61,029 nt of DNA, taken from positions 1 to 61,029 of IMG/VR virus record IMGVR_UViG_3300045257_000102. One strand, 5' to 3'. Below, piece by piece: positions 5,359-32,124 of this stretch. Each line of letters begins with the position of its first letter. Position 1 is the first letter of the stretch. The position numbers were made by a program, and so were the translations under genes. The notes below the pieces were generated by a model. The model searched no databases, had not been told where the DNA came from, and worked only from the letters and a program-made list of their open reading frames with translations. This DNA is from a virus.

Positions 5359-5431
5359 CGCAGCGCGAGTCCGTGAGCGAACGCAACACCGCGCTCGGCT
5401 CATTAGGGAAGCCAAGAGACGTTGAACAACG

Positions 5432-6082: not shown

Positions 6083-6118
6083 AGCTAGGAAACTGTGAAG
6101 CACGAACGGAGTGACATG

Positions 6119-8197: not shown

Positions 8198-8215
8198 CTG
8201 GCACTGGCGAAGTGA
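8198..8215 (+). repeat. 18-bp direct repeat, right copy
   Basis: An exact copy of 7428-7445. Here it is not the end of a gene: the PAPS-reductase-like gene has already stopped at 8193. It lies just before the ribosome binding site of the C5 methyltransferase. Confidence 0.9.
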
Positions 8216-8223
8216 GGGAGACG

Positions 8224-8982: not shown

Positions 8983-9134
8983 GCGACGAGCGGATTGAGG
9001 AGATGAGAAGAGCTGCGGAGCGTGGACAGTCGTGCTTTCCGAAGGATTTCGTTGCGCACAAGCTCGGCGCGATGATCCTGGAACTCTTAGCCGAGCGGGA
9101 ACAGACCAAGCCACGCGAGGAACCCAAGCCATGA
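8976..9134 (+). CDS. Small protein, unknown (52 aa)
   Basis: A 52-residue, helical, charged protein starting at 8976 with GGAGGAG seven bases upstream; it overlaps the methyltransferase stop. It ends LAEREQTKPREEPKP, a tail related to the AERLLA...P tails of the genes ending at 11968 and 12120. The next ATG (9131) opens only a 13-codon frame ending at 9172, probably a remnant cut by the HNH insertion. Confidence 0.65.
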   Translation: MLSDERIEEMRRAAERGQSCFPKDFVAHKLGAMILELLAEREQTKPREEPKP

Positions 9135-9213
9135 CTCAGACAGGACGACCGAAGCGGCCACGGAATGGGTGACGCGATGTTTCAATTGTGCGGCCAACCT
9201 GCTAGAATTAAAC

Positions 9214-9249
9214 GAACCGGCGCGAAGGCTGTTACCCTCCGGCCGGTTC
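9214..9249 (+). terminator. Hairpin before the HNH gene
   Basis: An 8-bp perfect inverted repeat, GAACCGGC and GCCGGTTC, with a 20-base loop. It sits in the 144-base gap ahead of the HNH gene, with no U-tract. It may stop read-through or shield the inserted gene's start. The rest of the gap (9135-9278) holds nothing else but the 13-codon remnant. Confidence 0.4.
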
Positions 9250-9278
9250 TAATCACAACGAACCCTAGGAGGTCCGTC

Positions 9279-9848
9279 ATGACTAAGCGCTATTCTAGCG
9301 ACACGTTGCCCCTGCTCCCACCTGAACAGAATGGCATCGTTTTCAGGAACGTCGGTGGACATCCGGGCTATGCGGTCAGCAATACCGGAGAAGTCCTGAC
9401 ATGCCTTGCGACTTCGCGTCTTGGACGATTTGGTTTCAGAAATTACTGGAAGCCGATGCGAACGTACATTTCCCATGGGTACAAGTGCCTAAAGATAAGG
9501 GGAATGGAGCGGACTAATTGCGCCATACATCGTCTGGTGCTCGAAGCGTTTGTCGGCCCATGTCCGAATGGATTCGAGGCGTGTCACAACGATGGCGACC
9601 GCCAGAACAACCGCCTTGAGAACTTACGGTGGGATACTCGCTCTGGAAATCATTCGGACAAAGAGCAACACGGAACGATGTTGCGAGGCGCAAGACACCC
9701 TAATGCAAAAATCACCTGGGAGATCGTCAGCGAGATTCGTAGGCGATCATTGAATGGAGAATCTCTTCTAAGATTGGCCCGCGAATTCGGAATTAGCAGG
9801 AGCAATGTGGGTTTGATTGCGGCGAGAAAGACATGGAATAAAGAATGA
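9279..9848 (+). CDS. NUMOD4-HNH homing endonuclease
   Basis: A 189-residue free-standing homing endonuclease. The NUMOD4-like start (GHPGYAVSNTGEV) is followed by an HNH_3 core (IHRLVLEAFVG, then ACHNDGDRQNNRLENLRWDT) and a C-terminal helix-turn-helix (SLLRLAREFGISRSNVGLIAA) for DNA contact. AGGAGG lies eight bases before the ATG, so the start is secure. Such genes are mobile and insert between phage genes. It overlaps the next gene by ATGA. Confidence 0.9.
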   Translation: MTKRYSSDTLPLLPPEQNGIVFRNVGGHPGYAVSNTGEVLTCLATSRLGRFGFRNYWKPMRTYISHGYKCLKIRGMERTNCAIHRLVLEAFVGPCPNGFEACHNDGDRQNNRLENLRWDTRSGNHSDKEQHGTMLRGARHPNAKITWEIVSEIRRRSLNGESLLRLAREFGISRSNVGLIAARKTWNKE

Positions 9849-12731: not shown

Positions 12732-12806
12732 GCCAGGACCAGTGAGAAACGGTTTCCAGTCGGTCTCATAAGCCGACCTCCGCAGGTTCGACTCCTGCCG
12801 CTGGCA
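12732..12806 (+). tRNA. tRNA-Met(CAT)-like gene
   Basis: The 3' two-thirds is canonical: anticodon stem TCGGT/GCCGA with loop CTCATAA (anticodon CAT), a 5-base variable loop, T-stem GCAGG/CCTGC with loop TTCGACT, and 3' acceptor strand CGCTGGC plus A. The 5' acceptor GCCAG pairs with CTGGC, but the next two positions mismatch and no normal D-stem forms. No CCA is encoded. It may be a functional tRNA with an unusual D-arm or a decaying one. CAT could read Met, or Ile if the C is modified. Confidence 0.6.
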
Positions 12807-13013: not shown

Positions 13014-13532
13014 ATGGCTGCCGAGATTTTAACGGATGAATCGAATGCTGTCCAAGTTGAGCTTAGTCGCGGGATGTACGCAACAATCGACGCGGCCGAC
13101 CTGTCGATAGTCGAGCCGTACCGATGGATGACGATTGTGCACACGAGGGGGCGAAGGAGAAGTTTTTATGCTGGGTCGAATCTCGGAAAAGAAGGCATGT
13201 TGCTGATGCACCGACTAATCCTGTCGGCACCAGATGGCATGGAGATTGACCATCGAGATCACGACGGTCTCAACAATCGACGAACCAATTTAAGGCTGGC
13301 GACTCACGCACAAAATCTATTCAACAAAAGACCACAAAAAGGACGTGCTTCGTGGTTCAAAGGCGTAATGAGGAGCGAGAACGTAAATCGACCTTGGACA
13401 GCAATAATCACCCTGAATGGAAAACACCGCCGCCTCGGAACTCACCTGACCGAAGAAGAAGCTGCCGTGGCTTACGACGGAGCGGCTGCTGAATTGTTCG
13501 GCGAATTCGCATATCTGAACTTTCCAACCTAA
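13014..13532 (+). CDS. HNH-AP2 homing endonuclease
   Basis: A 172-residue homing endonuclease. An HNH_3 core (LLMHRLI, then EIDHRDHDGLNNRRTNLRLA) is followed by an AP2 DNA-binding domain (FKGVMRS, PWTAIITLNGKHRRLGT, EEEAAVAYDGAA, FGEFAYLNF). GAAGGAG precedes the ATG. It is the second of three homing-type nucleases here and marks the border between the tRNA stretch and the cargo island. It is probably a selfish insertion rather than part of phage metabolism. Confidence 0.92.
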   Translation: MAAEILTDESNAVQVELSRGMYATIDAADLSIVEPYRWMTIVHTRGRRRSFYAGSNLGKEGMLLMHRLILSAPDGMEIDHRDHDGLNNRRTNLRLATHAQNLFNKRPQKGRASWFKGVMRSENVNRPWTAIITLNGKHRRLGTHLTEEEAAVAYDGAAAELFGEFAYLNFPT

Positions 13533-13557: not shown

Positions 13558-13920
13558 ATGACCTTGTTGCAAATCCTCCAAACTCTGCTCGCCAACATCG
13601 GCAAGGCCCCGGCAATCCTCGCATTCATTCAAGCCCTGATCGCGGCGTTCAACACCCTACTCGCCGCCTTGGGCCAGACGCCTCCGCCAGCCATCGCCCA
13701 CGCGGCCGGCTCGCCGGAAGCCCTAGCGATTGACCAGCTCGCCGCAGCTCTGAAATCGCACGGCACGGCCGAAGCGAAGGTGTTCGGCGACGGAACGATT
13801 CTCAAGACGCTGTTCGGGTTGTTTGGCGGTTTGCTCTCGAATCCTACTTTCGGCCCGATCATCGCGGGACTATTGCAAAAGCTGCTGGGCGGCTTCCTGA
13901 ATCCGGTTCCGACACCCTAA
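13558..13920 (+). CDS. Small hydrophobic protein, possible membrane protein
   Basis: A 120-residue protein with hydrophobic helices at the N-terminus (LLQILQTLLANIG, ILAFIQALIAAFNTLLAAL) and near the C-terminus (LFGLFGGLLS, IIAGLLQKLLGG). A Pro/Ala stretch lies between. It may associate with membranes; a holin-like role is conceivable, but there is no standard holin pattern. It opens the cargo island. Confidence 0.65.
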   Translation: MTLLQILQTLLANIGKAPAILAFIQALIAAFNTLLAALGQTPPPAIAHAAGSPEALAIDQLAAALKSHGTAEAKVFGDGTILKTLFGLFGGLLSNPTFGPIIAGLLQKLLGGFLNPVPTP

Positions 13921-13934
13921 CCCTGGAGGTTGTG

Positions 13935-14078
13935 GTGGCACAAACCCCAGACGACATCTGGCAATCGCGAACCGACGAAGCGATTGCACAGCTTCAGGTT
14001 GACGTTGAGCTGCTCAAGCGGCAGATGGCCGAGATCATGGAAGCGCTACAAAAGCTCGCGGGAGGAAAGACGCCATGA
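13935..14078 (+). CDS. Short coiled-coil protein (47 aa)
   Basis: A 47-residue helical protein starting at a GTG (13935) with GGAGG five bases upstream. Heptad-like leucines and isoleucines (IAQLQVDVELLKRQMAEIMEAL) predict a coiled coil. Its stop overlaps the next start by ATGA. Function unknown. Confidence 0.6.
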   Translation: MAQTPDDIWQSRTDEAIAQLQVDVELLKRQMAEIMEALQKLAGGKTP

Positions 14079-14242
14079 AGATGAGCGAATTTGTTGAGGT
14101 TCTGAAGCATTACGCGCCGCCGTTCTCCACGGAAGATCCAGAACTTTATGCGGACGGCAAAGAGGTAATGAGCATCGCCGTGACTCAGGAAACGAAATCC
14201 GGCGCCCTGCAAATCGAGTTCAACACGAAGGCCGCCGAATAA
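14075..14242 (+). CDS. Small protein, unknown (55 aa)
   Basis: A 55-residue protein in an ATGA overlap with the coiled-coil gene and 12 bases before the S53 peptidase gene. It has a helical start and a beta-like end (GALQIEFNTKAAE). Conserved coupling to the peptidase could mean a partner or inhibitor; this is speculation. Confidence 0.6.
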   Translation: MKMSEFVEVLKHYAPPFSTEDPELYADGKEVMSIAVTQETKSGALQIEFNTKAAE

Positions 14243-14253
14243 ATGGAGTTGCG

Positions 14254-15909
14254 ATGCCGCTCGATAAGACTCAGACGATTACCGTCTCGCTGTTTCTAAA
14301 GCCGATGACGCCAATCGCGCCGCCGGTCGCCGGCGCGCCGCCAATGGACGCGGAGACGTTCGCCGCTCAGCATTCTGCCGACCCAGCGGACATCGAGAAC
14401 ATCAAGCAAATGGCCGCTGCCAAGGGCCTTACCGTCGAAGGCGTTCATCCCGTCCAGCGGATCGTCAACGTCTCAGGCACGATCGACCAGCTCGAAGCGG
14501 CCTTTGGCGCCGAGGTCGAACAGCGCCCGACGCCCCAGGGTGAGCATCGCTTCCTCGCACGAGCAGCCGATCCGATGCCGCACTTGGGCATCGTGAAGAC
14601 GCTGGGATGGGAGTCGGCGCCGTTTGCGCAGCCGCACTTTCGCAGGCGACACAAGCACGCCGGAGCCGGTATCAGAGCCGAAGGGGTTGAACCGCACGCA
14701 ATGAAGCCGCTCGGGCCAGTCGCTACGGCTAAGCTCTACGGCGTCACGACGCGCCCCGCAGGAATCTACCGGACCTGTCACGGCTCGATCCTCTGTCTCG
14801 GCGGCGGCTATACGGCCAGCGATGTTGCCGCAAGCTGCCAGCTCAACGCAATCCCGGTTCCGACGATCATCGACGAATCTGTCCTCGGGGCCACCAATGC
14901 CCCTGGAAACGACGCCGATGTGGAGTTGATGCTGGACATCATCCAGCAGGCTGGGGCGTACTACGCACGCACAGGGAAGGCACAGACTATCCACGTCATT
15001 TTCACGCCGAATACCGACGCCGGTTATGTCGGCGGCTGCTCTTTCGCGGCTCACCTAGCAAACATGGCGGCCATGTCAACGTCGTGGGGGTCGCCAGAGA
15101 ACAACTGGTCCCAATCGGCCAGCACGTTTGATTCGACGGCCAAGGGCGCGGCCACGCTCGGCGTGACGTTTACTGCGGCAAGCGGCGATGGCGGTTCGAC
15201 AGACGGAACCGGCTCGAACGTCGTGGACTTCCCGGCGGCTTCGCCCTATGTGCTTGGCATGGGCGGAACGAACCTGAGCGATGTCGGCGAAGTCGTTTGG
15301 AACGATCCTGGCGGCGGGGCCGGCGGTGGCGGATTCTCACAAGTTGAGACTCCGCAGCCGCCTTGGCAGAGCGACTACCCGGCGACGGGCGGCCGCTGCG
15401 TACCGGACTTGGCGGCGAACTCGGCTCCGGCGACGTGCGGAACAATCGTCGTGCAGGGCCAGCACCTCGATATAGGCGGTACGTCTGCCGCTGCGCCTTG
15501 GATGGCCGGCATGATTTGCGCCCTGTCGGAAGAGTTGCCGCACAATATCGGCTATCTCAATCCGCTGCTAAAGATGATGCCGGCGACGTGCTTTGAGGAC
15601 ATCGTTCGCGGGGATAACGGCGGCTACAGCGCGAAGCCGGGTCCGGACCTGTGCACGGGCCGTGGATCTCCGCGACCGCTCGAGATGCTCAAGGCGCTCG
15701 GCGGGGCAATTGTAATTGATCCGCCTCCTCCTCCACCACCACCGCCGCCTCCCACCCTGACCGTCGCACAATTCCAAGCCAATCTCCGCGTGAGTGCCCG
15801 CAAGAAATACGCGGATGACTTGAAAAAAGAGAGTCGCATCGAGCATTGGACCAACGGCTATTACGCGCTCTTGACGGATAACATTATCGCTTCGGAGCCG
15901 ACCACGTGA
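14254..15909 (+). CDS. S53 serine-carboxyl peptidase (sedolisin/kumamolisin-like)
   Basis: A 551-residue acid-type peptidase. The propeptide domain spans about 1-140. The catalytic set is visible: Glu224 and Asp228 in DADVELMLD, the oxyanion Asp312 in ASGDGG, and nucleophile Ser411 in GGTSAAAP. A C-terminal calcium site is suggested by CFEDI and PDLCTGRGSP. A polyproline run (about 490-500) links to a 50-residue tail. No classical signal peptide is seen although family members are usually secreted. GGAG lies five bases before the start. Such enzymes are rare in phages; roles could be host envelope degradation, lysis, or a lysogenic conversion trait. Confidence 0.9.
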   Translation: MPLDKTQTITVSLFLKPMTPIAPPVAGAPPMDAETFAAQHSADPADIENIKQMAAAKGLTVEGVHPVQRIVNVSGTIDQLEAAFGAEVEQRPTPQGEHRFLARAADPMPHLGIVKTLGWESAPFAQPHFRRRHKHAGAGIRAEGVEPHAMKPLGPVATAKLYGVTTRPAGIYRTCHGSILCLGGGYTASDVAASCQLNAIPVPTIIDESVLGATNAPGNDADVELMLDIIQQAGAYYARTGKAQTIHVIFTPNTDAGYVGGCSFAAHLANMAAMSTSWGSPENNWSQSASTFDSTAKGAATLGVTFTAASGDGGSTDGTGSNVVDFPAASPYVLGMGGTNLSDVGEVVWNDPGGGAGGGGFSQVETPQPPWQSDYPATGGRCVPDLAANSAPATCGTIVVQGQHLDIGGTSAAAPWMAGMICALSEELPHNIGYLNPLLKMMPATCFEDIVRGDNGGYSAKPGPDLCTGRGSPRPLEMLKALGGAIVIDPPPPPPPPPPPTLTVAQFQANLRVSARKKYADDLKKESRIEHWTNGYYALLTDNIIASEPTT

Positions 15910-16010
15910 CTTGGGATTGGGCCAGCTTTGCAATCGGTCTTACGGCGGGAATCCTCTGCACTGTTGGAGCATATGTGATCGCGGCTTATCTCATTTTTGG
16001 CAGGGACTAG
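15906..16010 (+). CDS. Single-pass membrane microprotein, copy 1 (34 aa)
   Basis: A 34-residue protein starting at a GTG that overlaps the peptidase stop. It reads MTWDWASFAIG then a hydrophobic helix of about 20 residues. A close relative with the same start (MTWDWATFAIG) lies at 16338. Both are almost pure membrane segments. Confidence 0.6.
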   Translation: MTWDWASFAIGLTAGILCTVGAYVIAAYLIFGRD

Positions 16011-16017
16011 GTGACTC

Positions 16018-16338
16018 ATGGACCCTCTTGCTGCATTTTTTATCGGTGCTGTCCTTGGCGGTGTGCTGGCCTACGTGGCGGGAACTCTTCTCGCAAGCGA
16101 TTCGAGTAGCGAACTCAAGTCGGCTCAGGAGCGAATCCTCGACCTGGAAAAGCAGCGCGACGAACTCACAGCCGAGACTCAGCAGGCCCATGAGCTGATC
16201 GCTCAGGTTAAAGATGCTGCGTCGAAGGACCACGACATCGCGGCGAGCTCACAATCGGAAACAGCGCGGCTGCTGGCGAAGTACGAGCCGCCGAAACGCT
16301 CGCACCACAAAAGCAAGGAGCGTGGAGGCTCAGGCTGA
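16018..16338 (+). CDS. Membrane-anchored coiled coil, Rz/spanin-like candidate
   Basis: A 106-residue protein with one N-terminal membrane helix (AAFFIGAVLGGVLAYVAGTLLA), then a long charged helix with coiled-coil character (ELKSAQERILDLEKQRDELTAETQQ) and a basic tail. This is the layout of an inner-membrane spanin (Rz). No lipoprotein partner is embedded in another frame that I can see. It lies between the two MTWDWA microproteins, so a small envelope/lysis cassette is possible. Confidence 0.6.
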   Translation: MDPLAAFFIGAVLGGVLAYVAGTLLASDSSSELKSAQERILDLEKQRDELTAETQQAHELIAQVKDAASKDHDIAASSQSETARLLAKYEPPKRSHHKSKERGGSG

Positions 16339-16457
16339 TGACTTGGGACTGGGCTACTTTTGCGATCGGTTGCGTGGTTGGGCCAGTTTTACTCCTATTC
16401 GTGTTTCCATTCCTATATGTCGTCTTGCTGGTTGTGATGGGTAAGGGAGACCAATGA
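16338..16457 (+). CDS. Single-pass membrane microprotein, copy 2 (39 aa)
   Basis: A 39-residue protein starting in a TGATG overlap with the spanin-like gene. The start MTWDWATFAIG matches that of the microprotein at 15906. The following hydrophobic run is about 25 residues. The pair flanks the spanin-like gene, suggesting duplication. Confidence 0.6.
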   Translation: MTWDWATFAIGCVVGPVLLLFVFPFLYVVLLVVMGKGDQ

Positions 16458-16567
16458 TGAGCGGGCATATCGGCGAACTAATCATGGACGTGGTTCTCTG
16501 GTCGCTGGCAGTCGGCTTGATTGCGTTTGTCGTGGTTTGCGCGGTGAGGGTGCTGGGGAGCGTTTAA
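16454..16567 (+). CDS. Membrane microprotein (37 aa)
   Basis: A 37-residue protein with one hydrophobic helix (DVVLWSLAVGLIAFVVVCAV). Start 16454 or 16457 are both possible, overlapping the previous stop. Third small membrane protein in a row; candidate holin, pinholin or envelope modifier. Confidence 0.5.
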   Translation: MMSGHIGELIMDVVLWSLAVGLIAFVVVCAVRVLGSV

Positions 16568-16569
16568 CC

Positions 16570-16770
16570 GTGAGTACGAACGACTACGGACCACCGCAAT
16601 GCGGCTACTGCGGAGCGTATCACGTCGGAATATGTCCTCGCATCGAAGAGATCGAAAGGTATCCAGACGGAACCGCAAAGCGAATTAAGTTCCGACCGCA
16701 GGGAAACGATGCTCAGACGATCGAATTCAACTTCTCGAAAGAATTTCATTCAGCGCCGTACTACGGTTGA
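16570..16770 (+). CDS. Small zinc-knuckle protein
   Basis: A 66-residue protein beginning at GTG 16570. CGYCGAYHVGICPR gives three cysteines and a histidine, a zinc-knuckle layout, followed by a beta-like end with basic residues. It probably binds nucleic acid. It starts two bases after the preceding stop. Confidence 0.6.
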   Translation: MSTNDYGPPQCGYCGAYHVGICPRIEEIERYPDGTAKRIKFRPQGNDAQTIEFNFSKEFHSAPYYG

Positions 16771-16776
16771 ATTTCC

Positions 16777-17046
16777 GTGACCGACCCCGAAATAGAAGTC
16801 GAAGCGAAACGTCTACTGGCTCGCGGTATGACTCAGCGGGAAGTGGCGCGGCGATGCCATCTAGGGCGCGGAACTGTCCAGCGGATCGACCGAGGGGAAC
16901 CGTTGAAACAAGACGGACATACGACGAGGAACGGGGAGTTTGCACTCGTAGGAATTTGGCGTTGCCCATCATGTGGCGGCCGGATCAAAACTCGCAAATG
17001 TCTGGCGTGCGGAATTAGGAAGCCGCGAACGACGGTAGTTGTATGA
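16777..17046 (+). CDS. Helix-turn-helix and zinc-ribbon regulator
   Basis: An 89-residue protein beginning at a GTG. Residues 8-40 form a resolvase-type helix-turn-helix (LLARGMTQREVARRCHLGRGTVQRI). The second half is a zinc ribbon (CPSC and CLAC). It probably binds DNA as a small regulator. It is the clearest transcription-factor-like gene on the genome besides the excisionase; its target is unknown. Confidence 0.7.
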   Translation: MTDPEIEVEAKRLLARGMTQREVARRCHLGRGTVQRIDRGEPLKQDGHTTRNGEFALVGIWRCPSCGGRIKTRKCLACGIRKPRTTVVV

Positions 17047-17174
17047 TGGGACCATTTGCCCTACTTGACTGGATCGTGCTGAAGCTGTGGCAGGCGATTA
17101 CGTTCCTGCCGCTCGTGTGGATGGCGGCGCATAAGCCGGGAGCGGAACAGTTCGGCGAGGATTTGAAGCGATGA
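17043..17174 (+). CDS. Small membrane-like protein (43 aa)
   Basis: A 43-residue protein coupled at both ends by ATGA. It has an amphipathic or membrane helix (LLDWIVLKLWQAITFLPLVWM) and a polar tail. Function unknown. Confidence 0.55.
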   Translation: MMGPFALLDWIVLKLWQAITFLPLVWMAAHKPGAEQFGEDLKR

Positions 17175-17440
17175 AGTTCCGAAAAAAACCAATCGTAGTC
17201 GAGGCCGAGCAATACTGCGGCCCGGAAACAATCTATATCGAGGCCGAGAAACCGGTGCTTCCGAGTGGTGTTGAATGGTCATTCTGCGGCGGTCAAGATT
17301 TTCGATTGTGGCCAGCCATCACCACACTTGAAGGCAAAATGATCGTCAGTCCGAATGATTGGGTAATTACTGGCGTCAAAGGCGAAGTCTATCCGTGTAA
17401 GCCGGATATTTTCGAGGCGACTTACGAAGCGGCCGAATGA
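17171..17440 (+). CDS. Conserved phage protein, PGDYI-like
   Basis: An 89-residue protein of a family widespread in phages: MKFRKKPIVVEA at the start, then LEGKMIVSPNDWVITGVKGE and YPCKPDIFEATYE at the end. In relatives the middle reads PGDYIITG or PGDWIITG. The function is unknown; it is usually an early or middle gene. ATGA overlaps on both sides. Confidence 0.8.
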   Translation: MKFRKKPIVVEAEQYCGPETIYIEAEKPVLPSGVEWSFCGGQDFRLWPAITTLEGKMIVSPNDWVITGVKGEVYPCKPDIFEATYEAAE

Positions 17441-18432
17441 AACTCGCCTACGAAACGCTCGAAAGCAGATTGATGCTCTCACACCACCACCATCACCCGC
17501 ACCCGCCGATTCCACAGCCGCCTCCGGTTGTGCCGCCGCCGATCGTCTCGCCGCCTGTGGTGCCGCCCGTGACGATTGGCGCTAAGCCCATGGGCTATCA
17601 GACGTTCTATCAAGCTGGAGCGGACGCGAACGCGGGATTGCATTCGACGCAGGCTTACTACAGGTACGATTGGAATACCGTTGAGAGTGCGCCGGGAGTA
17701 TTTCAATTCGGCGCGATGGATGCCGACTACAATGCGGCGGTTAAGGCTGGCCAGAAGTTCAACTTCCGCATAATGCCATTCGAGGATGGGAATACTGGCC
17801 CAATTGGGCTTGTCTCGCTCGGCGGAAACTGGGTCACTTTTCAAGGCGTTAAAACATGGCAGCCCGACCTCAATTTGTCCGCCGTACAAGCCGACCTGGA
17901 TTTGTTGCTGAAATCTCTTGGAAGCAGATACGCAACGCAAACGGCGACGGTAGACATCGGCTGGTGGGGACCGTACGGCGAGTGGTCGAATTACGGGATG
18001 CCCGCACCCCCACCGCTGCCGACAATCTCGACTATGAAGTGGCTTATTGGTGAAACGCAAAGGTATTTCCCTAATTCAATTGCGGTCACGCAAGCCGTGG
18101 TGGATTACGAATGGGGAACTACTGGCTATCTCAACGCAGCAATGGCTGCTGGATGCTGGCAGCGCATGGATAGTTGGGGCAAAGCCGACTCGTGGGACAT
18201 GCAGGCCGACAAAGCGGTCTTAAACGCCATGCAGCAGTCTCCGTACTGGACAAAGATTTGCACGATTGGCGAACCATTCGATACGAACTCATGGTCTGCG
18301 GCTGATTGGCAGTCGGCAGTCGCGTTCGCCAAGTCGGCCAGAATGGCTCTCTGGTCTACCAAGGGGAACGCAATCCCGCCCAGCGAAATGTCGCTGGTTG
18401 AGCAATTGATCGCGTTTGAGAAGACGTTATGA
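17437..18432 (+). CDS. Secreted glycoside-hydrolase-like protein with LEPR-XLL-like start
   Basis: A 331-residue protein. Residues 1-15 (YETLESRLMLS) resemble the planctomycete LEPR-XLL motif at the N-terminus of exported proteins, followed by a His/Pro-rich linker to about residue 48. The body looks like a TIM-barrel glycosidase of the GH42/DUF4832 kind (YYRYDWNTVESAPGVFQF, AGQKFNFRIMPFE, GWWGPYGEWS, IGEPFD). The Glu in GEWS or GEPF may be catalytic. Its last residues (SLVEQLIAFEKTL) are echoed by a remnant at 19118-19162. It may degrade host surface polysaccharide or peptidoglycan. Confidence 0.7.
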   Translation: MKLAYETLESRLMLSHHHHHPHPPIPQPPPVVPPPIVSPPVVPPVTIGAKPMGYQTFYQAGADANAGLHSTQAYYRYDWNTVESAPGVFQFGAMDADYNAAVKAGQKFNFRIMPFEDGNTGPIGLVSLGGNWVTFQGVKTWQPDLNLSAVQADLDLLLKSLGSRYATQTATVDIGWWGPYGEWSNYGMPAPPPLPTISTMKWLIGETQRYFPNSIAVTQAVVDYEWGTTGYLNAAMAAGCWQRMDSWGKADSWDMQADKAVLNAMQQSPYWTKICTIGEPFDTNSWSAADWQSAVAFAKSARMALWSTKGNAIPPSEMSLVEQLIAFEKTL

Positions 18433-18641
18433 ACGGCTGCCCATTACATGGCGATGCGTGGTGTACGTGCAAGAAAGACCGCGATCCGACACCAGAAGAG
18501 ATTGCATTAGCCGGTGCGCGGCTCGCGGCGGCGATTCGGATTCTTGAGGGCTTTTCGGAAGACACGGAAGCTGACAGACAAAGACGGCTTGAACAGGCGC
18601 GGCTCGCCGACGATGCGCGTCATAGAGGGCCATTGCTATGA
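18429..18641 (+). CDS. Small protein with N-terminal Cys/His cluster
   Basis: A 70-residue protein. The start holds CPLHGDAWCTC, a compact metal-binding group, followed by an acidic-basic helix. Coupled by ATGA to both neighbours. It is the first of three genes lying between the glycosidase-like gene and its ghost tail. Confidence 0.65.
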   Translation: MNGCPLHGDAWCTCKKDRDPTPEEIALAGARLAAAIRILEGFSEDTEADRQRRLEQARLADDARHRGPLL

Positions 18642-18862
18642 CCAAGAAGTACAAATATTTCGTTGTTGAGGACATTCCAGAGGATGATTGCGTAATCTAT
18701 TCGGCTATGTCAATCCGAGAAGCAAAACGACTCCGGGTGAAATTAGCATATGAGGATCGCGATGGTCCGGCGCTTGGCATTACGAAATGGAATGGAACTA
18801 TCGAAGACTTTGAAAACCGCGCAGTATTGCGGGCGAAAAATCCAAAACCTATAGGAATCTGA
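18638..18862 (+). CDS. Small protein, unknown
   Basis: A 74-residue mixed alpha/beta protein starting TKKYKYFVVEDIPEDD. It is coupled by ATGA to the previous gene and ends one base before the next start. No family recognised. Confidence 0.65.
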   Translation: MTKKYKYFVVEDIPEDDCVIYSAMSIREAKRLRVKLAYEDRDGPALGITKWNGTIEDFENRAVLRAKNPKPIGI

Positions 18863-18863
18863 T

Positions 18864-19118
18864 ATGCACTATCGAAACGGCCGCGAGGCCAAGAATGGCG
18901 ACAAAGTAGTTCAACTCATGGCTTGGGGTGAACCAATGATTACCGCAGTCGGTATTTTGCACGATGCGAAGCCCGGCAACGACCTTTGTAATGGCAGCAT
19001 CGCCCCGACGACTTCGGCCGGTGTCACCGGGGCTTGCCTGTGCGACTGCCTCCATGCTGACGACTTGGCGGCACTGCTCAAGGAAAAGGGACTCGATAAA
19101 CGGCCTGCTGGAAAGTAA
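18864..19118 (+). CDS. Conserved small phage protein
   Basis: An 84-residue protein. The start MHYRNGREAKNGDKV is familiar from small phage proteins of soil and planctomycete-type genomes. A CLCDC cluster near residue 58 may bind metal. AGGA lies a few bases upstream. Function unknown. Confidence 0.65.
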   Translation: MHYRNGREAKNGDKVVQLMAWGEPMITAVGILHDAKPGNDLCNGSIAPTTSAGVTGACLCDCLHADDLAALLKEKGLDKRPAGK

Positions 19119-19162
19119 CGCCCCTGGTCGATCAACTGCTGGCGTTTGAGAAAACCCTGTAA
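19118..19162 (+). pseudogene. Ghost 3' tail of the glycosidase-like gene
   Basis: The frame here reads PLVDQLLAFEKTL then stop, matching the end of the glycosidase-like protein at 18432 (SLVEQLIAFEKTL then stop). No start or upstream coding sequence belongs to it; the previous gene stops at 19118. It is probably what is left of a duplicated or displaced copy of that gene's 3' end. Confidence 0.7.
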
Positions 19163-19178
19163 CGGAGGAGATTCACCG

Positions 19179-19862
19179 ATGAGAAACTTTGCCCTATTGC
19201 TGGTTGTCACGATGGCCTCGATGACGCTTATAGCGGCTGATGCGCCGCACGGCGGACAATCCACCATTCCGCCGCAAGGTCATGTTGTGCAACCCGGCCC
19301 AGCGGTCCATGCGCTTCCCGGTCCTGTCACGCCGGAGCAGCCACACCTAGCGCCGGCCGGACCACCCCATGTCGAACCGCACTTTCGCCCTGAATTATCC
19401 CGAGAATCGACACGCGAAGTCCCTCACAAGTCGAGTAGCGAAGTGATTCGGGAATCGAGTCGAGAATTCTCTCATTCCGCGATCCGACCGGGCGATATTG
19501 GCCGCGCTCGGATGCGCTGGGATGGCGCGCGTTGGTGGAATCTGTCCTTGGGCAATGCCTGGTCCTACTACGACGGAGCCGCTTGGGTTGCCTACCAGCC
19601 GGGAGTCGTTGAGTTTGCGCCGCCGCTTTTGGTTCAAGAGGATGCCGTTGAACAACCCGCAGTTGTCGAGCAAGCTCCGGCGATTGTGCAACCGCTGGTC
19701 GTGCCGCAAGGCTACCAGTATTACGACTCTCACTGGTGGTATCAATCGAACGGCGCATGGGTCGTTCACAACGGTAGTGCGTGGGTTGCGCCGCGAGCGT
19801 TCTATAGCGGCAGATCGTACTTTTACGAGCGGCCGGGCGTTCGTATTTCGATCGGGAGGTAG
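19179..19862 (+). CDS. Secreted Trp-repeat protein
   Basis: A 227-residue exported protein. A signal peptide covers about residues 1-20 (MRNFALLLVV, cleavage near IAA-DAP). A Pro/His/Ser-rich region follows, then two Trp/Tyr repeats (RWDGARWWNLSLGNAWSYYD and QYYDSHWWYQSNGAWVVHN), each ending in AWVA. GGAGGAG precedes the start. Such Trp-repeat modules may bind surfaces or sugars. It lies four bases before the di-heme peroxidase-like gene, so the two are probably co-expressed in the envelope. Confidence 0.75.
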   Translation: MRNFALLLVVTMASMTLIAADAPHGGQSTIPPQGHVVQPGPAVHALPGPVTPEQPHLAPAGPPHVEPHFRPELSRESTREVPHKSSSEVIRESSREFSHSAIRPGDIGRARMRWDGARWWNLSLGNAWSYYDGAAWVAYQPGVVEFAPPLLVQEDAVEQPAVVEQAPAIVQPLVVPQGYQYYDSHWWYQSNGAWVVHNGSAWVAPRAFYSGRSYFYERPGVRISIGR

Positions 19863-19866
19863 GGCT

Positions 19867-20946
19867 ATGAGCCATCGCATCTATCGAGCCATGAACGATG
19901 TGCTTTCGCTTCTGCTCATCTTTGCGCTGGCGTTCATGCTTGGCCTTGGACTCGCCACGTTCGTTCGTGGGCAGGAAGTCCAAACCGCCGACATTGACGC
20001 TAACCCGACGCCGGAGCAACTGGCGCTGGGCAACATGCTGATTCACGAGAAGCACTTAAGCACGACCGGCGAGAAGTCGTGCATCAGTTGTCACGATCCG
20101 GGCCGCGCCTTTACCGACGGTTTCGCGGCTTCAACCGGCGTCAATCGACAAGTCGGCACGCGAACGTCAATGACGATGGAGGACGCCGTATTCAAGCCGG
20201 ACATCTTTTGGGACGGCCGGGCAAGGTTCCTCGAAGGACAGGCTACGCAGCCGATCGTCGCCGCGAAGGAGATGGGCCAGCAGACGTTGCAACAGGCGTT
20301 CAATCGCATCGCCCAGAGCCAAGGCTACCAGGGGGCCTTCGAACGTGCTTTCGGCCGCGGCGTGAACGTCCAGGACGGCATCCGAGCTATCGCCATGATT
20401 GAACGCACGATTGTCCACGGCGAAGCGCCGATCGACCGCTACGAGAAAGGCGAACATTGGGTATTCAACGCGGAGCAGAATCGCGGCCGGGAAATCTTTT
20501 TCGGCAGCGGGAAATGCACGCAATGCCATTTCGGGCCGTCGCTCAGCGACCACGAATTCCACGTCGTACTCGGACGGACGCAAGATCGTAACGGCCAGCT
20601 TGACAGAGGCCGGGGAGCAATCACGAATCGCCGTGAAGACAATTTCAAGTTCGCGACACCTACCTTGCGGGACATCGGCAAGCGTGGGCCGTTCTTCCAT
20701 GCCGGGCAGGCACGCGACCTAGATGGCGTTGTGGACCTGCTCGATAACCCGCCGCAAGGGAGCGAACTGAGGCGGCTTAACTTGTCGGACGACGACAAAA
20801 AGGCGCTCGTCACGTTCCTTTCAACGGCGTTTGAGTCGTATGTGGCTCCGACGCTGGCGGAAGTCAGTTTGCCGAACGATTTTCCAGGAGAACAGAGACA
20901 AGCAAGGGGGCAGCAACGGAACCAGGGACAACGGAGGCAGCGATAA
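19867..20946 (+). CDS. Di-heme cytochrome c peroxidase-like protein
   Basis: A 359-residue exported protein. A membrane/signal segment covers about 10-34 (VLSLLLIFALAFMLGLG). Two c-type heme motifs are intact, CISCH (72-76) and CTQCH (217-221), with typical family landmarks: WDGR (115-118), TLRDI (266-270) and GPFFHAG (274-280). This is the CcpA/MauG family, which reduces peroxide or oxidises partners in the periplasm. The start at 19867 replaces a longer frame because it gives a signal segment. The C-terminus is Gln/Arg-rich. Such proteins are almost unknown in phages and point to a cargo gene acting in the host envelope. Confidence 0.9.
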   Translation: MSHRIYRAMNDVLSLLLIFALAFMLGLGLATFVRGQEVQTADIDANPTPEQLALGNMLIHEKHLSTTGEKSCISCHDPGRAFTDGFAASTGVNRQVGTRTSMTMEDAVFKPDIFWDGRARFLEGQATQPIVAAKEMGQQTLQQAFNRIAQSQGYQGAFERAFGRGVNVQDGIRAIAMIERTIVHGEAPIDRYEKGEHWVFNAEQNRGREIFFGSGKCTQCHFGPSLSDHEFHVVLGRTQDRNGQLDRGRGAITNRREDNFKFATPTLRDIGKRGPFFHAGQARDLDGVVDLLDNPPQGSELRRLNLSDDDKKALVTFLSTAFESYVAPTLAEVSLPNDFPGEQRQARGQQRNQGQRRQR

Positions 20947-20975
20947 CCCAATCCTTTTGTCAGGAGACCCAGACA

Positions 20976-21191
20976 ATGGCAGTTCCAAAAGTTGACGGCA
21001 TTTTATCATTGTACGACACGCACCGCGACAACATGGAGAAGCAAGCCCAGCGAGTGCGGGAATTGAACAAAAAGCACACTTCGCAGCAGGAAGAACTCAC
21101 GGCCACAGAGACAGAGATTACCGAGGGGTGCCGCAAACTCACGGCGCTCCTCAATTGCGCACCGCAAGGCGTAACGAGTTCCAGCCCGTAA
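20976..21191 (+). CDS. Small coiled-coil protein
   Basis: A 71-residue helical protein (MEKQAQRVRELNKKHTSQQEE) with a TCAGGAG ribosome site upstream. One Cys pair region (EGCRKLTALLNC). Coupled to the next gene by a TAATG overlap. Function unknown. Confidence 0.65.
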   Translation: MAVPKVDGILSLYDTHRDNMEKQAQRVRELNKKHTSQQEELTATETEITEGCRKLTALLNCAPQGVTSSSP

Positions 21192-22318
21192 TGACCGCAG
21201 ACCGGCTTAACACGATTGACGATTGCTACCGGCAATGGCAGGGCCGCTTCGCTCTGCCTGCGCCGGTTCGTCGGCGGGGACGTACCGTCCTAATCATCTG
21301 CGGGATTGGGCTGGTTTGTACCACGGCGATTGTGCTTGCGGCTGGCCCGACTCCGTATCCCAAGGAAGCGTCCGTAATGGTGCCGGCGAAGCCAGTCGTC
21401 AAGCCGCAGCCAATTACGATTGAAATCCCCACCAAGGAACTCGCGGAAAAGATCGGCGGTCTCGGCAGCACGCTCACGGCTATTACTGATGAATTGAAAA
21501 GCGCGGCTGCGAGACCGCCCATCGAACATGTTGCTCAGGCGACACCGCCGCCAGCACCCGTGGAGGATAAGGGACCGCCGCCGGGACCGGACAAGCCACA
21601 GCAGCCAGTTAAGTTTTTTCCAGGGCCCGCATCAGTCGCTCAGCCGGTTGATCCGGTCATTCGCGTCGAAGCGCCGACAAGTCGCCCGCTCGGAAAGATC
21701 ATCGTAGTTCGCTGCTCGCAATCCATGAACGTCCAGAAAATGCTTGTGGACATCGAGCCGGCGATCCCGGTCGATGACGTGTATCAAAGCGATGACGGCA
21801 AGGATTTTGTGTTCAGCGTGCCGGACGAGGGGACGTGGACAGTTCGCGTTACGGCCAGTAGCCCTACCGGCGGCCTGGATCGCGTTGTGCGGCAGGTGAC
21901 AGTCGGAGAAGGGGTGGCCGGTTCGGCATCATCGAGACAGGTTGCAACTGTCCGCAGTACTGAATTCGGGCCGACGGATTATGTCAAATGGATTAGCCGG
22001 AACGCCAACCTGATTAAAAGCCCGAACCGCAAAGGCGACTTGGCAGCCTTGGCAGGGGCCTACAAAGCCGCTGAGACGTTGATTCGCACGAATGGCATTA
22101 GATCGGTTGACGAACTCGGACGCTTCGTAGACGGGCAGGCTGACGCTGCGTTGGGGCTTTACCCCGACGGTCGCGCTGGCCCTGAGATGGAAGCGTGCGT
22201 AGAGTTTCGCAATGCGTTGAATCTACTGACAAAGAATGACTTCCGCTTCCACGATTTGGCCGGCGTGGGATCGGGTCTGAATGAGATTGTTTCCGGCTTA
22301 CTGAAAGCATCGAGGTAA
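21191..22318 (+). CDS. Membrane protein with Ig-like extracellular part
   Basis: A 375-residue protein. A membrane helix (about 31-52, TVLIICGIGLVCTTAIVLAA) follows a cytoplasmic start. Outside it are a Lys/Pro-rich stretch, an amphipathic helix (IPTKELAEKIGGLG), a proline-rich linker and an Ig-like beta domain (about 165-240). The C-terminal part is helical. Layout and neighbours suggest an envelope-anchored protein working with the secreted cargo. No enzymatic motif. Confidence 0.7.
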   Translation: MTADRLNTIDDCYRQWQGRFALPAPVRRRGRTVLIICGIGLVCTTAIVLAAGPTPYPKEASVMVPAKPVVKPQPITIEIPTKELAEKIGGLGSTLTAITDELKSAAARPPIEHVAQATPPPAPVEDKGPPPGPDKPQQPVKFFPGPASVAQPVDPVIRVEAPTSRPLGKIIVVRCSQSMNVQKMLVDIEPAIPVDDVYQSDDGKDFVFSVPDEGTWTVRVTASSPTGGLDRVVRQVTVGEGVAGSASSRQVATVRSTEFGPTDYVKWISRNANLIKSPNRKGDLAALAGAYKAAETLIRTNGIRSVDELGRFVDGQADAALGLYPDGRAGPEMEACVEFRNALNLLTKNDFRFHDLAGVGSGLNEIVSGLLKASR

Positions 22319-22330
22319 GGAGTACGGGTT

Positions 22331-22651
22331 ATGAAGAGGATCGTTTATGGATTGTTGCTCGCGTCTTTGTTGATCGTTCCGTCGTCCGCCAAGGCCAGCG
22401 AGGCAACCGACGCCGCGATTCTGGCGCAGTTGAAGGCCCTGAATGACACGATCGTTACGCTCAACATGCGCAGCGAGGCGTTCAGTTCGCGGCTGGACAA
22501 GATCGAGAAGGGACAGCAGACGGCCGCGACGAATCAGGTTCGCACGGCGTTGAACCGCGTCCCGCAGCCGAATAACTCGGCCAGCCTGAATCAGGCGCTG
22601 AATCAGACTCAGGGGCAATGTGCCTCGGGCAAGTGCGGCCAGAGCCGCTAG
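22331..22651 (+). CDS. Secreted small helical protein
   Basis: A 106-residue exported protein with a clear signal peptide (MKRIVYGLLLASLLIVPSSA, cleaved before KASE). A helical segment with coiled-coil spacing is followed by an Asn/Gln-rich tail ending CASGKCG. Likely periplasmic; partner unknown. Confidence 0.7.
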   Translation: MKRIVYGLLLASLLIVPSSAKASEATDAAILAQLKALNDTIVTLNMRSEAFSSRLDKIEKGQQTAATNQVRTALNRVPQPNNSASLNQALNQTQGQCASGKCGQSR

Positions 22652-22695
22652 TTAGAACACAGTAACCACACTGTAAATCATTGAAAGGAGTTTCT

Positions 22696-23340
22696 ATGTA
22701 CAAGCATGTTCTAGCGACGATCTTCGGTCGTCGCCATCACGGGGGCGGCCACTGCGGCGCTCTCATCGCAGCCGTCGCGATTCTGACGGCCGGCACGTCT
22801 GACGCTTGTAATTGCGGTAGCAAGGCAGCGGTTGCGGTCGCTCCAGCGGCTACGGCTGTTTGTGCCCATGCGGTCACGATGACCGTCGTGCAGCCGATGG
22901 TCGTTCAGAGGCTCGTGACCGTCATGCAGCCGATGTTCGTTCAGGCCTTTCAACCGGCGACTGTCGCCTGTGCGCCAGCGGTTGTGCAGCAACAGGCCGT
23001 AGTTCAACAGCAAGCGGTTGTCCAGGCTCCGGCCATTGCTCAGAGCGTCGTTGCTCCGCCGGAACCGCCTCAGTCCTTCACTGGCCCTCCGGCGGCGCCT
23101 ATGGCCGTCCAGGGCGTTCAGACGGAGGCGGTTGCGACTGAAGCCGTGGGATTGGCGACCGTCGAAGCTCGCAAGCTGGGATTCTTTGAGCGATTCCGTC
23201 TCGCTCGCGAGGAGCGAAAGGCGCTCAAGGAATCGGTCGTGCTGGTTCCGGCACAGCAGCAAGTTGCTGTAGTCCAGCAGCAAGCGGTTGTCAGCCAAGC
23301 CGTCACGGTCAGGAGCCGAATGCGGCTGCGTTGTTTGTAA
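22696..23340 (+). CDS. Secreted Val/Gln-repeat, Cys-bearing protein
   Basis: A 214-residue protein starting after AAAGGAG. A His-rich start (RRHHGGGHCG) precedes a hydrophobic export segment (LIAAVAILTAG) and CNCG. The middle has repeated VVQQQAVV units and VQPMVVQRLVTVMQPMFVQ stretches, and a charged helix (LGFFERFRLAREERKALK) lies near 165-185. This low-complexity style is common among exported planctomycete proteins. It ends the cargo island and is followed by a strong terminator. Confidence 0.7.
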   Translation: MYKHVLATIFGRRHHGGGHCGALIAAVAILTAGTSDACNCGSKAAVAVAPAATAVCAHAVTMTVVQPMVVQRLVTVMQPMFVQAFQPATVACAPAVVQQQAVVQQQAVVQAPAIAQSVVAPPEPPQSFTGPPAAPMAVQGVQTEAVATEAVGLATVEARKLGFFERFRLAREERKALKESVVLVPAQQQVAVVQQQAVVSQAVTVRSRMRLRCL

Positions 23341-24236: not shown

Positions 24237-24515
24237 ATGGACGTTAGCACGCTTAACGAAGCGTTTCTCATCGAAGTCGGGCGGGCGGTCATGGATTTAA
24301 ACGAGTGGCGCCGCCGTGGAGATGATCGCGAGTTTTCCCTGATGACCGACCCCAACGATAACAATCTAGTCGAGTGCAACTTGATGGAAGGCACTCGGCA
24401 CGAATGGGCGATCGAGGGGAAAATTCACAACGGCAAAACGCTAGAGACGGTTTACGACGTGCTCAAAGCGGCGCAGGAAAAATGGAACAGAGGCAAAGAG
24501 CAGGCCGATGGATGA
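24237..24515 (+). CDS. Small protein, unknown
   Basis: A 92-residue protein with GGAGG before the start. It is acidic-helical at the start and mixed later (EWAIEGKIHNGKTLETVYDVLKAAQ). It overlaps the next gene by 8 bases. No family recognised. Confidence 0.65.
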   Translation: MDVSTLNEAFLIEVGRAVMDLNEWRRRGDDREFSLMTDPNDNNLVECNLMEGTRHEWAIEGKIHNGKTLETVYDVLKAAQEKWNRGKEQADG

Positions 24516-25026
24516 CAACCCCTCGCCACGAGTATCGTGCGGTCATACCGTCGGCACCCTCTTCGATTTAATGGATGAGCGCGAACGCTTCCAAATGGAG
24601 CGTATCGGAAAGCTGGAAGCGGTTGGAACCGAACGCGATTTGCGATACAAGGAGAAGTTCGACGCCCAAGAAAAAGCCGTCAAGATTTCCTTCGATTCGT
24701 CTGAAAAAGCTGTGCAGAAAGCCGAGGACGCCCAGAAGGAATACAACGTCCGAAGCAATGAATTCCGCTCCGCGTTGGACGACCAACAGAAAACATTGCT
24801 GACTCGGAACGAGGCTGACACGCGATTTACACAGATTCGTGAACTGGTCGATGCGCAAGGCGCGATGATTGGCACGATTCAGAATGTGCTTAGTCGGACG
24901 GAGGGAATAGCCAGGACAATAGATGGCGGCAAGGCAAATAACCTCGTTGTGTTTGCTCTGTTGGCGACTTTGGCTTTAGTAGTGATCGAAGGCGTGGGGT
25001 TGTTGTTTGTGATTTTGAGGCATTAG
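24508..25026 (+). CDS. Coiled-coil protein with C-terminal membrane anchor
   Basis: A 172-residue protein of a type common in phage lysis regions: LMDERERFQMERIGKLE, then YKEKFDAQEKAVKISF, a long coiled coil, and one membrane helix at the end (VVFALLATLALVVIEGVGLLFVIL). It would sit with the coil in the cytoplasm. Its neighbour at 25040 is a two-helix membrane protein, so the pair may be holin-like. Confidence 0.75.
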   Translation: MDDNPSPRVSCGHTVGTLFDLMDERERFQMERIGKLEAVGTERDLRYKEKFDAQEKAVKISFDSSEKAVQKAEDAQKEYNVRSNEFRSALDDQQKTLLTRNEADTRFTQIRELVDAQGAMIGTIQNVLSRTEGIARTIDGGKANNLVVFALLATLALVVIEGVGLLFVILRH

Positions 25027-25039
25027 AAAGGCGGCGGTT

Positions 25040-25279
25040 ATGTTATTGCGTCGAGCATTATTCGGACTCATTTCCCTGTCTGGAGTCGTCCAGTTGATGG
25101 TCTATCTGATCGTTGCCGGGCTGATCTTCTGGCTGTTGTACTTCCTCGTGAATTACATCAACCCACCGGAACCGTTCAAGAAGATTGCGATGGTGATCCT
25201 CATGGTCTGTGCGGTTCTCATTTGCATCGGCGTGCTGCTGAGTTTCGCGGGCGTCAACGTCGTACAGTTTGGACCGTAG
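25040..25279 (+). CDS. Two-helix membrane protein, holin candidate
   Basis: A 79-residue protein with two membrane helices (LMVYLIVAGLIFWLLYFLV and MVILMVCAVLICIGVLLSFAG) joined by INPPEPFKK. The form matches the Thivi_2564-like small membrane proteins often found as phage holin candidates. No endolysin gene is adjacent, so a holin role rests on topology only. Confidence 0.65.
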   Translation: MLLRRALFGLISLSGVVQLMVYLIVAGLIFWLLYFLVNYINPPEPFKKIAMVILMVCAVLICIGVLLSFAGVNVVQFGP

Positions 25280-25284
25280 CAAAA

Positions 25285-25539
25285 ATGATTGTGACGTTCC
25301 TTTCCGCCGATGGCTTAGACAACCTCGTAAAAGCTACCGGCTTTGATCTATCGAACGCTACCTACGAGTATAAGTATTCCTGGTTGCTCGAACGGATCGG
25401 GATGCTCCGAAAAGATTCGGAAGCGGCGGCAATCCTCCATGACAATCCCGACAAACAGGATTTAATATCCGTCATCCAAAAAGAGCGGGAGTGGAGTCGA
25501 AAGCTTCAAGAAACCATCAACGCCTTGCAAACTCGATGA
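25285..25539 (+). CDS. Small protein, unknown
   Basis: An 84-residue protein of mixed charge. ATG 25285 is chosen over an in-frame upstream codon inside the holin candidate. Overlaps the next gene by ATGA. Function unknown. Confidence 0.65.
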   Translation: MIVTFLSADGLDNLVKATGFDLSNATYEYKYSWLLERIGMLRKDSEAAAILHDNPDKQDLISVIQKEREWSRKLQETINALQTR

Positions 25540-25745
25540 GAGAGTATCCGATGATTGACGACTTGGATTGGGGCAAAGCAAAGGATCACTTCGATGAGGT
25601 TCGCGAGATGTATCAAGAGCTTGAGGGAGCGCCCGGAGTTAATACGACCTTTGCCCTACGAATGGTTTTTGATCCACTCGCTGTTCGATACAACGCTGGC
25701 GAACGGACATCCGACCTTCATAGAGAAATGATGTCAGTCGAATGA
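25536..25745 (+). CDS. Conserved small phage protein
   Basis: A 69-residue protein resembling a recurring phage family: DWGKAKDHFDEVREMY, then LEGAPGVNTTFALRMVFDPLAVRYNAGERT. Its conserved NTTFAL and GERT segments are recognisable, but its function is unknown. Coupled by ATGA to the previous gene. Confidence 0.75.
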   Translation: MREYPMIDDLDWGKAKDHFDEVREMYQELEGAPGVNTTFALRMVFDPLAVRYNAGERTSDLHREMMSVE

Positions 25746-25746
25746 C

Positions 25747-26133
25747 ATGGGCGAAGAACACACAGCCCGAGAGTGGCTCGAAGCGATCTACCACCGCTTG
25801 GGCAAGGTTCAGAACAATCAGGCCATCGAGACGAACAACCAACATTTACTCGGCGACCAATTCAGCGAATTGAGGCAATTTGTGACTACAGAAATGCAGC
25901 AACTAAAAGACCTCATCGTCAAGATTCGCGACGACTGCGGCACGATCCAAACGCTTCGAGCTAAGATTGTCGCGCTTGAAGCTCAGCTTGCCAACACAGA
26001 CGCACCTGCCGACGTGCAAGCCCGGATCGACGAACTCAAGCAGATTGACAATTTGATCCTGGCTGCGGAGGGCGGCGGGACCGTCGCAGGAATACAGATC
26101 GAACACGGAACACCAACAGAGCGCACCCAATAG
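25747..26133 (+). CDS. Coiled-coil protein
   Basis: A 128-residue helical protein starting one base after the preceding stop. A coiled coil (LKDLIVKIRDDCGTIQTLRA, then IVALEAQL) is followed by a short Gly-rich turn and polar tail. It is the last gene before the terminator that separates it from the structural genes. Confidence 0.65.
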   Translation: MGEEHTAREWLEAIYHRLGKVQNNQAIETNNQHLLGDQFSELRQFVTTEMQQLKDLIVKIRDDCGTIQTLRAKIVALEAQLANTDAPADVQARIDELKQIDNLILAAEGGGTVAGIQIEHGTPTERTQ

Positions 26134-26159
26134 GAGAAGAGACGATTCGGCAGTTTGTT

Positions 26160-26195
26160 CCGCGCGGCACTTCGCCACGCGGGTTGTTTTCTTTT
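26160..26195 (+). terminator. Terminator before the structural region
   Basis: CCGCGCGGC and GCCACGCGG form a 9-bp stem with one mismatch and a 5-base loop, followed by GTTGTTTTCTTTT. A good intrinsic terminator. Confidence 0.75.
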
Positions 26196-26211
26196 GCAAA
26201 GGAATCTTGTT

Positions 26212-26631
26212 ATGGCAACAGTAAAAACCGTCAAGGCAAGTGCAATGAAGGCGCGGGCCTCGGGCCAAAAGGCCGGTAAGGCATCCGATTTCCTCTTGGC
26301 ACTTCCTGACAATGTGGACGATCCCGTTACGGTCGTCGTCGTCGATATGGCTGGAGTCGCTATCACCGATCCAGCCGTATTGGCGAACGTGACGTTGACC
26401 GCCGTTTCGGCCGATCCGACCAAGGCAACAGTTGATACGATCGTCGGATTGACGGCGATCGAGCACCTGCTTGCTCCGACCGATCCAGCGACGCCTGTCG
26501 TGGTCAGCTTCACGGCGACTTGGAGCGATTCAAGTTTCGGGCCGTTCACGATTGACGATCCGCTCAATATCACGACCAGTGGCCCCGGCGGCTTGGCTGT
26601 GAATCACGGTCCTTCGGTCGTTCGCCCGTAA
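26212..26631 (+). CDS. Ig-like small structural protein
   Basis: A 139-residue beta-rich protein. After a Lys/Ala-rich start it has an Ig-like pattern (DPVTVVVVDMAGVAITDP, then VVSFTATWSDSSFGPF). Similar small phage proteins decorate capsids or tails. AAGGA is present upstream. It lies between two terminators, so it may be transcribed alone at a high level. Confidence 0.6.
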   Translation: MATVKTVKASAMKARASGQKAGKASDFLLALPDNVDDPVTVVVVDMAGVAITDPAVLANVTLTAVSADPTKATVDTIVGLTAIEHLLAPTDPATPVVVSFTATWSDSSFGPFTIDDPLNITTSGPGGLAVNHGPSVVRP

Positions 26632-26687: not shown

Positions 26688-26755
26688 CATTAAAACATAC
26701 AACTCGACCGGCGACATTCGCGGCTGATCCCCGCGGGTGAAACCAGCGCAATTAG

Positions 26756-26790
26756 GCCACGTGACTGGTCACGCAGTTACGTGGCTTTTT
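26756..26790 (+). terminator. 12-bp intrinsic terminator
   Basis: GCCACGTGACTG pairs with CAGTTACGTGGC (12 bp, one G-U) around a 6-base loop and is followed directly by TTTTT. It is the most convincing intrinsic terminator in the window. No promoter is clear in the 37 bases between it and the next start. Confidence 0.85.
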
Positions 26791-32112: not shown

Positions 32113-32124
32113 TAAGGACCAACC

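Follow-up and report, generated by a model that had tools for sequence, protein, structure and literature searches.

A conserved S53 peptidase unit next to a replaceable cassette of predicted exported proteins in a phage with a likely planctomycete host

Position and borders of the locus

Why would a tailed phage carry a row of genes for exported and membrane proteins, and do these genes form one system? The question arises from positions 13558–23340 of a 61,029-nt window, the whole of IMG/VR record IMGVR_UViG_3300045257_000102, which an initial annotation described as one coherent island of exported or membrane cargo between two HNH/terminator borders. The ends of the window overlap by 127 bp, and the genome is therefore complete. 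It is that of a caudovirus. A PD-(D/E)XK exonuclease, a Sak4-like protein and a replication initiator mark its replication/recombination region; tail-spike and baseplate-like genes lie at 27–30 kb, the genes for terminase, portal, head morphogenesis and capsid at 33.8–43 kb, and tail genes beyond. Nearly all genes of the window, and every feature of the locus given below, lie on the + strand; the shared strand to which the annotation pointed is thus real and nothing special to the block.

We took genes from a simple codon-based caller and scored hydrophobic segments by hydropathy, a heuristic (not SignalP) applied to all genes alike. Such a segment was found in 11 of 20 predicted proteins in 13558–23340 versus 8 of 79 elsewhere in the window (Fisher 4.4e-5), and a second phage, G413, displays the same enrichment (13/22 vs 8/69, p=2e-5). 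The concentration of exported and membrane proteins therefore holds, but not the claim that all products are exported: some nine genes appear to encode cytoplasmic proteins, such as that at 17171 (phrog_419, a common phage family), and a signal peptide is missing from the S53 protein. As initially stated, no gene of the block has a convincing match to a virion PHROG.

The proposed borders fared less well. An HNH endonuclease gene with an AP2-like domain adjoins the block on the left (13014–13532; PF13392, E 4e-10; phrog_99, E 5e-34), while the right border has no HNH gene. Terminator-like sites in the region occur at chance level (16 found vs 16.0 expected from shuffles), as do promoter-like sites, and the strongest terminator-like stem of the region (26754–26787; 14-bp stem and T run) lies outside the block, at what is likely the end of a longer arm. 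Extension of the block to 26.74 kb strengthens the enrichment (14/29 proteins with a hydrophobic segment vs 5/70, p=9e-6), so the border at 23340 is arbitrary, and the real unit reaches past it to about 26.7 kb. In our best overall explanation, to which we give roughly an even chance, an accessory arm at 13.5–26.7 kb separates the early from the tail genes and holds two adjacent modules.

Three further features were seen to the left of the locus: a single tRNA-Met (CAT) just outside it at 12738–12806, barely over the Rfam threshold; a PAPS reductase-type protein at 7447–8193 (phrog_424, E 9e-17); and, at 8212–9848, a C-5 cytosine methylase gene that matches only the first half of its family profile, has an HNH gene next to it and is possibly interrupted by a homing endonuclease.

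The three-gene unit around the S53 peptidase

A search with the S53 protein led to G413 (L168), a complete circular phage of 51,177 bases. Alignments of hyd120 (the first gene of the block), portal, flank genes and S53 among viral contigs placed the block in G413 only, the single relative on which the two-module model rests. Gene order is kept on the left (hyd120, 71% identical; S53, 80%; a transmembrane (TM) and coiled-coil protein, 61%) and on the right (genes at 24237, 25747 (58%) and 26212). The conserved right flank spans 24237–26631 and comprises 24237–24515, TM proteins at 24508 and 25097, 25747–26133 and 26212–26631, of which the first and the last two are syntenic with G413. Between these flanks, 16.34–23.75 kb of the window is wholly replaced in G413 (29.9–34.3 kb), with nothing in common between the two versions. 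The comparison thus resolves the block into a conserved three-gene unit (module 1) and a replaceable cassette (module 2), and leaves a single coherent island, or one coherent system, unsupported; conservation of the block in relatives, which the initial annotation had named as its check, extends to the order of the left part and not to the right part, a mixed outcome.

Module 1 begins with hyd120 (13558–13920), a small hydrophobic protein whose AlphaFold model is all helical at moderate confidence (pLDDT 74). It has no family match in Pfam or PHROG and no fold match, and hence none to a holin family or fold; we treat it as a holin candidate. The S53 peptidase of the initial annotation is firmly borne out. 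The product of 14254–15909 is a kumamolisin-like zymogen (PDB 1t1e, E 3.7e-71) in which the catalytic set Glu224, Asp228, Asp312 and Ser411 aligns with kumamolisin and is present in both phages, and its Pro-kuma_activ domain (PF09286) scores 25.6 bits against a cut-off of 23.5. The likeness to kumamolisin covers propeptide and catalytic residues, with similarity at the 36–40% level across both domains. The phage protein differs in its shortened propeptide, in its lack of a signal peptide, such that the N-terminus is directly the propeptide, and in an additional Pro-rich linker and conserved C-terminal tail. Between window and G413 the gene has a dN/dS of 0.15, and by this measure it is under strong purifying selection. 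It is followed by a 34-aa TM microprotein (15906–16010), whose N-terminus (MTWDWASFAIG) resembles that of the microprotein at 16338–16457, and by the TM and coiled-coil protein (16018–16338). The "spanin-like coil" of the annotation is real as a TM coil and spanin-like at most, its match to the Rz-like spanin profile phrog_214 being insignificant (E 0.018); no o-spanin was identified. The terms holin-like and spanin-like denote resemblance only. Among the matches listed (in one list, 25 of 32 families), Pfam and PHROG recognised no peptidoglycan hydrolase in the window; this endolysin search covered the window and part of G413, and a divergent endolysin may escape such profiles.

The locus as a whole may be a candidate protease-based exit unit (module 1) joined to a replaceable cassette of exported accessory genes (module 2), a reading that we believe and doubt in about equal measure; the timing, location and functions of all its proteins are what we infer. 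Module 1 would most likely serve cell exit. The S53 protein would be made as a leaderless zymogen, inactive inside the cell, and small membrane proteins such as hyd120 would open the inner membrane, letting it reach the envelope; there it would mature and digest protein of the host's protein-rich envelope, with the TM-coil protein acting in a spanin-like manner. Known holin-endolysin-spanin cassettes of tailed phages likewise run from a small hydrophobic protein through a leaderless enzyme to a TM-coil protein, and that enzyme, too, would depend on a membrane lesion for access to the envelope. Module 1 departs from them in encoding an S53 protease zymogen where they have a peptidoglycan hydrolase, and in that its holin and spanin are putative. 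A lysis module, as proposed in the annotation, is thus a possible reading of these three conserved genes on the left. Characterised kumamolisins work best in acid, which counts against an exit role. Planctomycetes have cysteine-rich wall proteins (PMC8567305) and also peptidoglycan (PMC4432640), so that a protease alone might not lyse them. That some planctomycete phages exit by protease, a leaderless S53 zymogen freed by a small membrane protein replacing the peptidoglycan-cleaving endolysin and being suited to a protein-rich envelope, we regard as rather unlikely.

The same protein could instead belong to the virion, as part of the tail or as an ejected protein that removes surface protein at entry, with hyd120 and the TM-coil protein as neighbors of other roles. 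The block lies just upstream of the baseplate and tail-spike genes, and the Pro-rich linker and C-terminal tail could anchor the protein. Virion PHROGs, however, gave no match, and G413 has the S53 unit even though its tail-spike genes are not those of the window and its head genes are only distantly related (portal 21%), unlike those of contigs L001, L174 and L175, which share the head genes of the window phage. The S53 gene therefore does not follow the virion module, and a virion role seems somewhat unlikely to us. Since the head genes of G413 are so distant, these phages are mosaics in which the S53 unit moves independently of the head.

Two observations concern the structural genes themselves. 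Relative to 33.8–37.3 kb of the window, the portal of L001, L174 and L175 is 71–95% identical and the terminase 43 to 82%, a pattern that points to recombination inside the head module. A beta-helix-like protein (window 32307–33398, with a signal peptide; L174:1049–2134; L175:5661–6443; G413 5149–6093; 52–96% identity) occurs in all relatives found; its gene is upstream of the terminase in three contigs, and elsewhere and on the opposite strand in G413.

The cassette between the conserved flanks

Module 2 opens with TM microproteins of 39 aa (16338–16457), 37 aa (16454–16567) and 43 aa (17043–17174); with the one at 15906–16010 the block has four, where three had been counted. The large products broadly agree with the initial annotation. 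A glycosidase-like protein of DUF4832/GH42 type (17437–18432), with planctomycete relatives carrying DUF4832/GH42, is followed by a signal-peptide protein with Trp/Tyr repeats (19179–19862), which has marginal relatives in 2 of 304 planctomycete genomes. A di-heme CCP/MauG-type protein with an N-terminal signal or anchor (19867–20946; PF03150, E 5e-39, 134.6 bits vs a cut-off of 25.6) comes next. The membrane protein at 21191–22318, for which the annotation had proposed an Ig-like fold, has a single TM segment and a Pro-rich stalk and found no match in Pfam or the PDB. Two more proteins with signal peptides complete the row, one a coiled coil (22331–22651) and the other rich in Ala/Val/Gln repeats (22696–23340), which has a counterpart of similar style in the corresponding position of G413. 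An AlphaFold model of the glycosidase-like protein, made without an alignment, was unusable (pLDDT 39).

The CCP-type protein shares with bacterial CCP/MauG proteins (PF03150) the two CxxCH motifs (CISCH and CTQCH) and the Gln/Glu active-site loop. It differs in the column of the distal ligand of the second heme, where it has Leu, CCP has Met, and MauG and the planctomycete relatives have Tyr, and in its long branch. No CCP occurs in G413. Its cassette contains TM microproteins, an HNH gene, the Ala/Val/Gln-rich signal-peptide protein and two further proteins with signal peptides, one of 126 aa and one of 211 aa, the latter scoring over cut-off for PSCyt1 ("planctomycete cytochrome c"). It also encodes an exported protein of 572 aa (G413 30478–32196, equivalent to L170:13478–15193) that carries HEWEH and CxxCH motifs. 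This 572-aa protein has a homologue in the 595-kb metagenomic phage LR756511 (L197:3001–4368) that keeps the CxxCH, which is therefore probably a true heme site. Together, these two proteins appear to be an unnamed heme protein family common to phages. Judged by motifs, exported c-type heme proteins are present in module 2 of either phage, two of them in G413.

Module 2 may consist of accessory genes of host-like types. Sec-type signals, or an N-terminal motif of planctomycete type, would direct their products out of the cytoplasm, to act in the periplasm or at the surface of the infected cell. The di-heme peroxidase-type protein could serve redox or peroxide handling, or the oxidation of another protein; besides the glycosidase-like protein, the remaining products would be structural or adhesive. 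Moron and auxiliary cassettes are similar in that host-type accessory genes occupy a fixed syntenic place and are replaced between relatives. They differ from module 2 in that nearly all of its large products are exported and c-type heme proteins occur in both versions.

Alternatively, the cassette could be a neutral collection that hitchhikes with homing endonucleases and brings no benefit, given that HNH genes adjoin the block of the window and occur within the G413 cassette, and that the two phages share none of the contents. Against this, all large genes have open reading frames, exported and c-type heme proteins are the theme in either phage, and despite its long branch the CCP-type protein retains its heme and active-site loop motifs. 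We consider neutral hitchhiking quite improbable. An assembly chimera of phage and planctomycete DNA, as the host-like genes of module 2 and their presence in one genome only might suggest, is extremely improbable, and we reject it: the contig closes on itself through its 127-bp overlap, the gene order of both flanks agrees with that of an independent complete phage, genes in the block overlap by 4 bp and GC is even.

Host, origin and relation to known systems

A planctomycete host, as initially proposed, is likely because of the export motif on the glycosidase-like gene, PSCyt1 at the same place in G413 and the planctomycete relatives of block proteins. The glycosidase-like protein begins MKLAYETLESRLMLS, and its N-terminus (LESRLMLS) is similar to RRLxxExLExRxLLA, the export motif of planctomycetes (Studholme et al., as given in PMC8567305). 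A search for LExRxLL in a small sample of planctomycete contigs, which held too little DNA, gave no match, and a search with PF07595 (planctomycete extracellular motif) was used instead. The sole match in the window is at 17440–17478 (14 bits, E 0.0055; cut-off 25.5), and in the eight planctomycete chromosomes searched alongside every match was likewise below cut-off.

Relatives of the CCP-type protein were found in 27 of 30 planctomycete genomes. The phage copy forms a long branch at 33–41% identity and so is not a recent capture; its placement in the tree was discarded as unreliable. More generally, and contrary to the unrelated recent transfers that the annotation had named as refuting it, no gene of the block could be traced to a recent transfer, the best cellular relatives reaching at most 41% identity. 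The glycosidase-like protein has relatives in 13 of 294 planctomycete genomes, S53 in 2 of 343 planctomycete chromosomes, and the Trp-repeat and TM (21191–22318) proteins have marginal planctomycete relatives only. An apparent C-terminal S53 match in one planctomycete genome proved to be proline-rich low complexity. S53 is absent from 50,697 phage records, neither the glycosidase-like nor the PSCyt1 protein matches any phage record, and the CCP query found no relative among viral contigs. Only one other real phage record has a di-heme CCP relative, C48C1 (23% identity); Salmonella and Escherichia "phage" matches look like bacterial chromosome DNA and were set aside. In C48C1 (OQ984149.1, Kyanoviridae) the relative is a 473-aa "hypothetical protein" with both CxxCH motifs in a tRNA-rich region (L003:7740–9161). 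A search for TerL in genome contigs confirmed none, and planctomycete loci with a related TerL carry none of the block genes.

Lysogenic conversion, in which the exported proteins would alter the envelope of a lysogen, had been the other proposal of the initial annotation. Host-like exported genes of moron type would fit it, as would two genes near the right end of the window: a 108-aa ORF (57632–57958, − strand) that by eye looks like a tyrosine integrase cut down to its N-terminal part, the catalytic domain missing, and an excisionase-like HTH protein (58204–58443, + strand), for which only HTH/excisionase profiles matched in a pooled scan. The two are possibly the remnant of a temperate ancestor. 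Against this, no intact integrase was found in the window genome, and none of 392 planctomycete genomes contains a prophage with the block. The proposal does not stand in its initial form, and lysogenic conversion is very improbable.

The literature, as far as our incomplete search went, describes one planctomycete phage in culture, and its auxiliary genes encode cytoplasmic proteins. This Phage-ZRK32 of a deep-sea planctomycete (21.9 kb, chronic release, nitrogen-metabolism genes) is similar in being a planctomycete phage with auxiliary genes and dissimilar in that the accessible text of its description (PMC10945688) reports no exported heme or protease genes. Within the same scope we found no report of S53 in phages or of a CCP as a phage auxiliary gene, and S53 in phages and the swapping of cytochromes at one phage locus appear to be unreported. 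An accessory cassette and a possible lysis unit are known kinds of system; the genes that fill them here are unusual.

Planctomycete phages are hardly known, and a conserved unit with a leaderless protease in a phage with no recognizable endolysin makes the question of how such phages break out of an unusual envelope directly testable. The exchange of exported heme protein sets at one locus, in turn, suggests that control of the host's periplasmic redox chemistry pays during infection.
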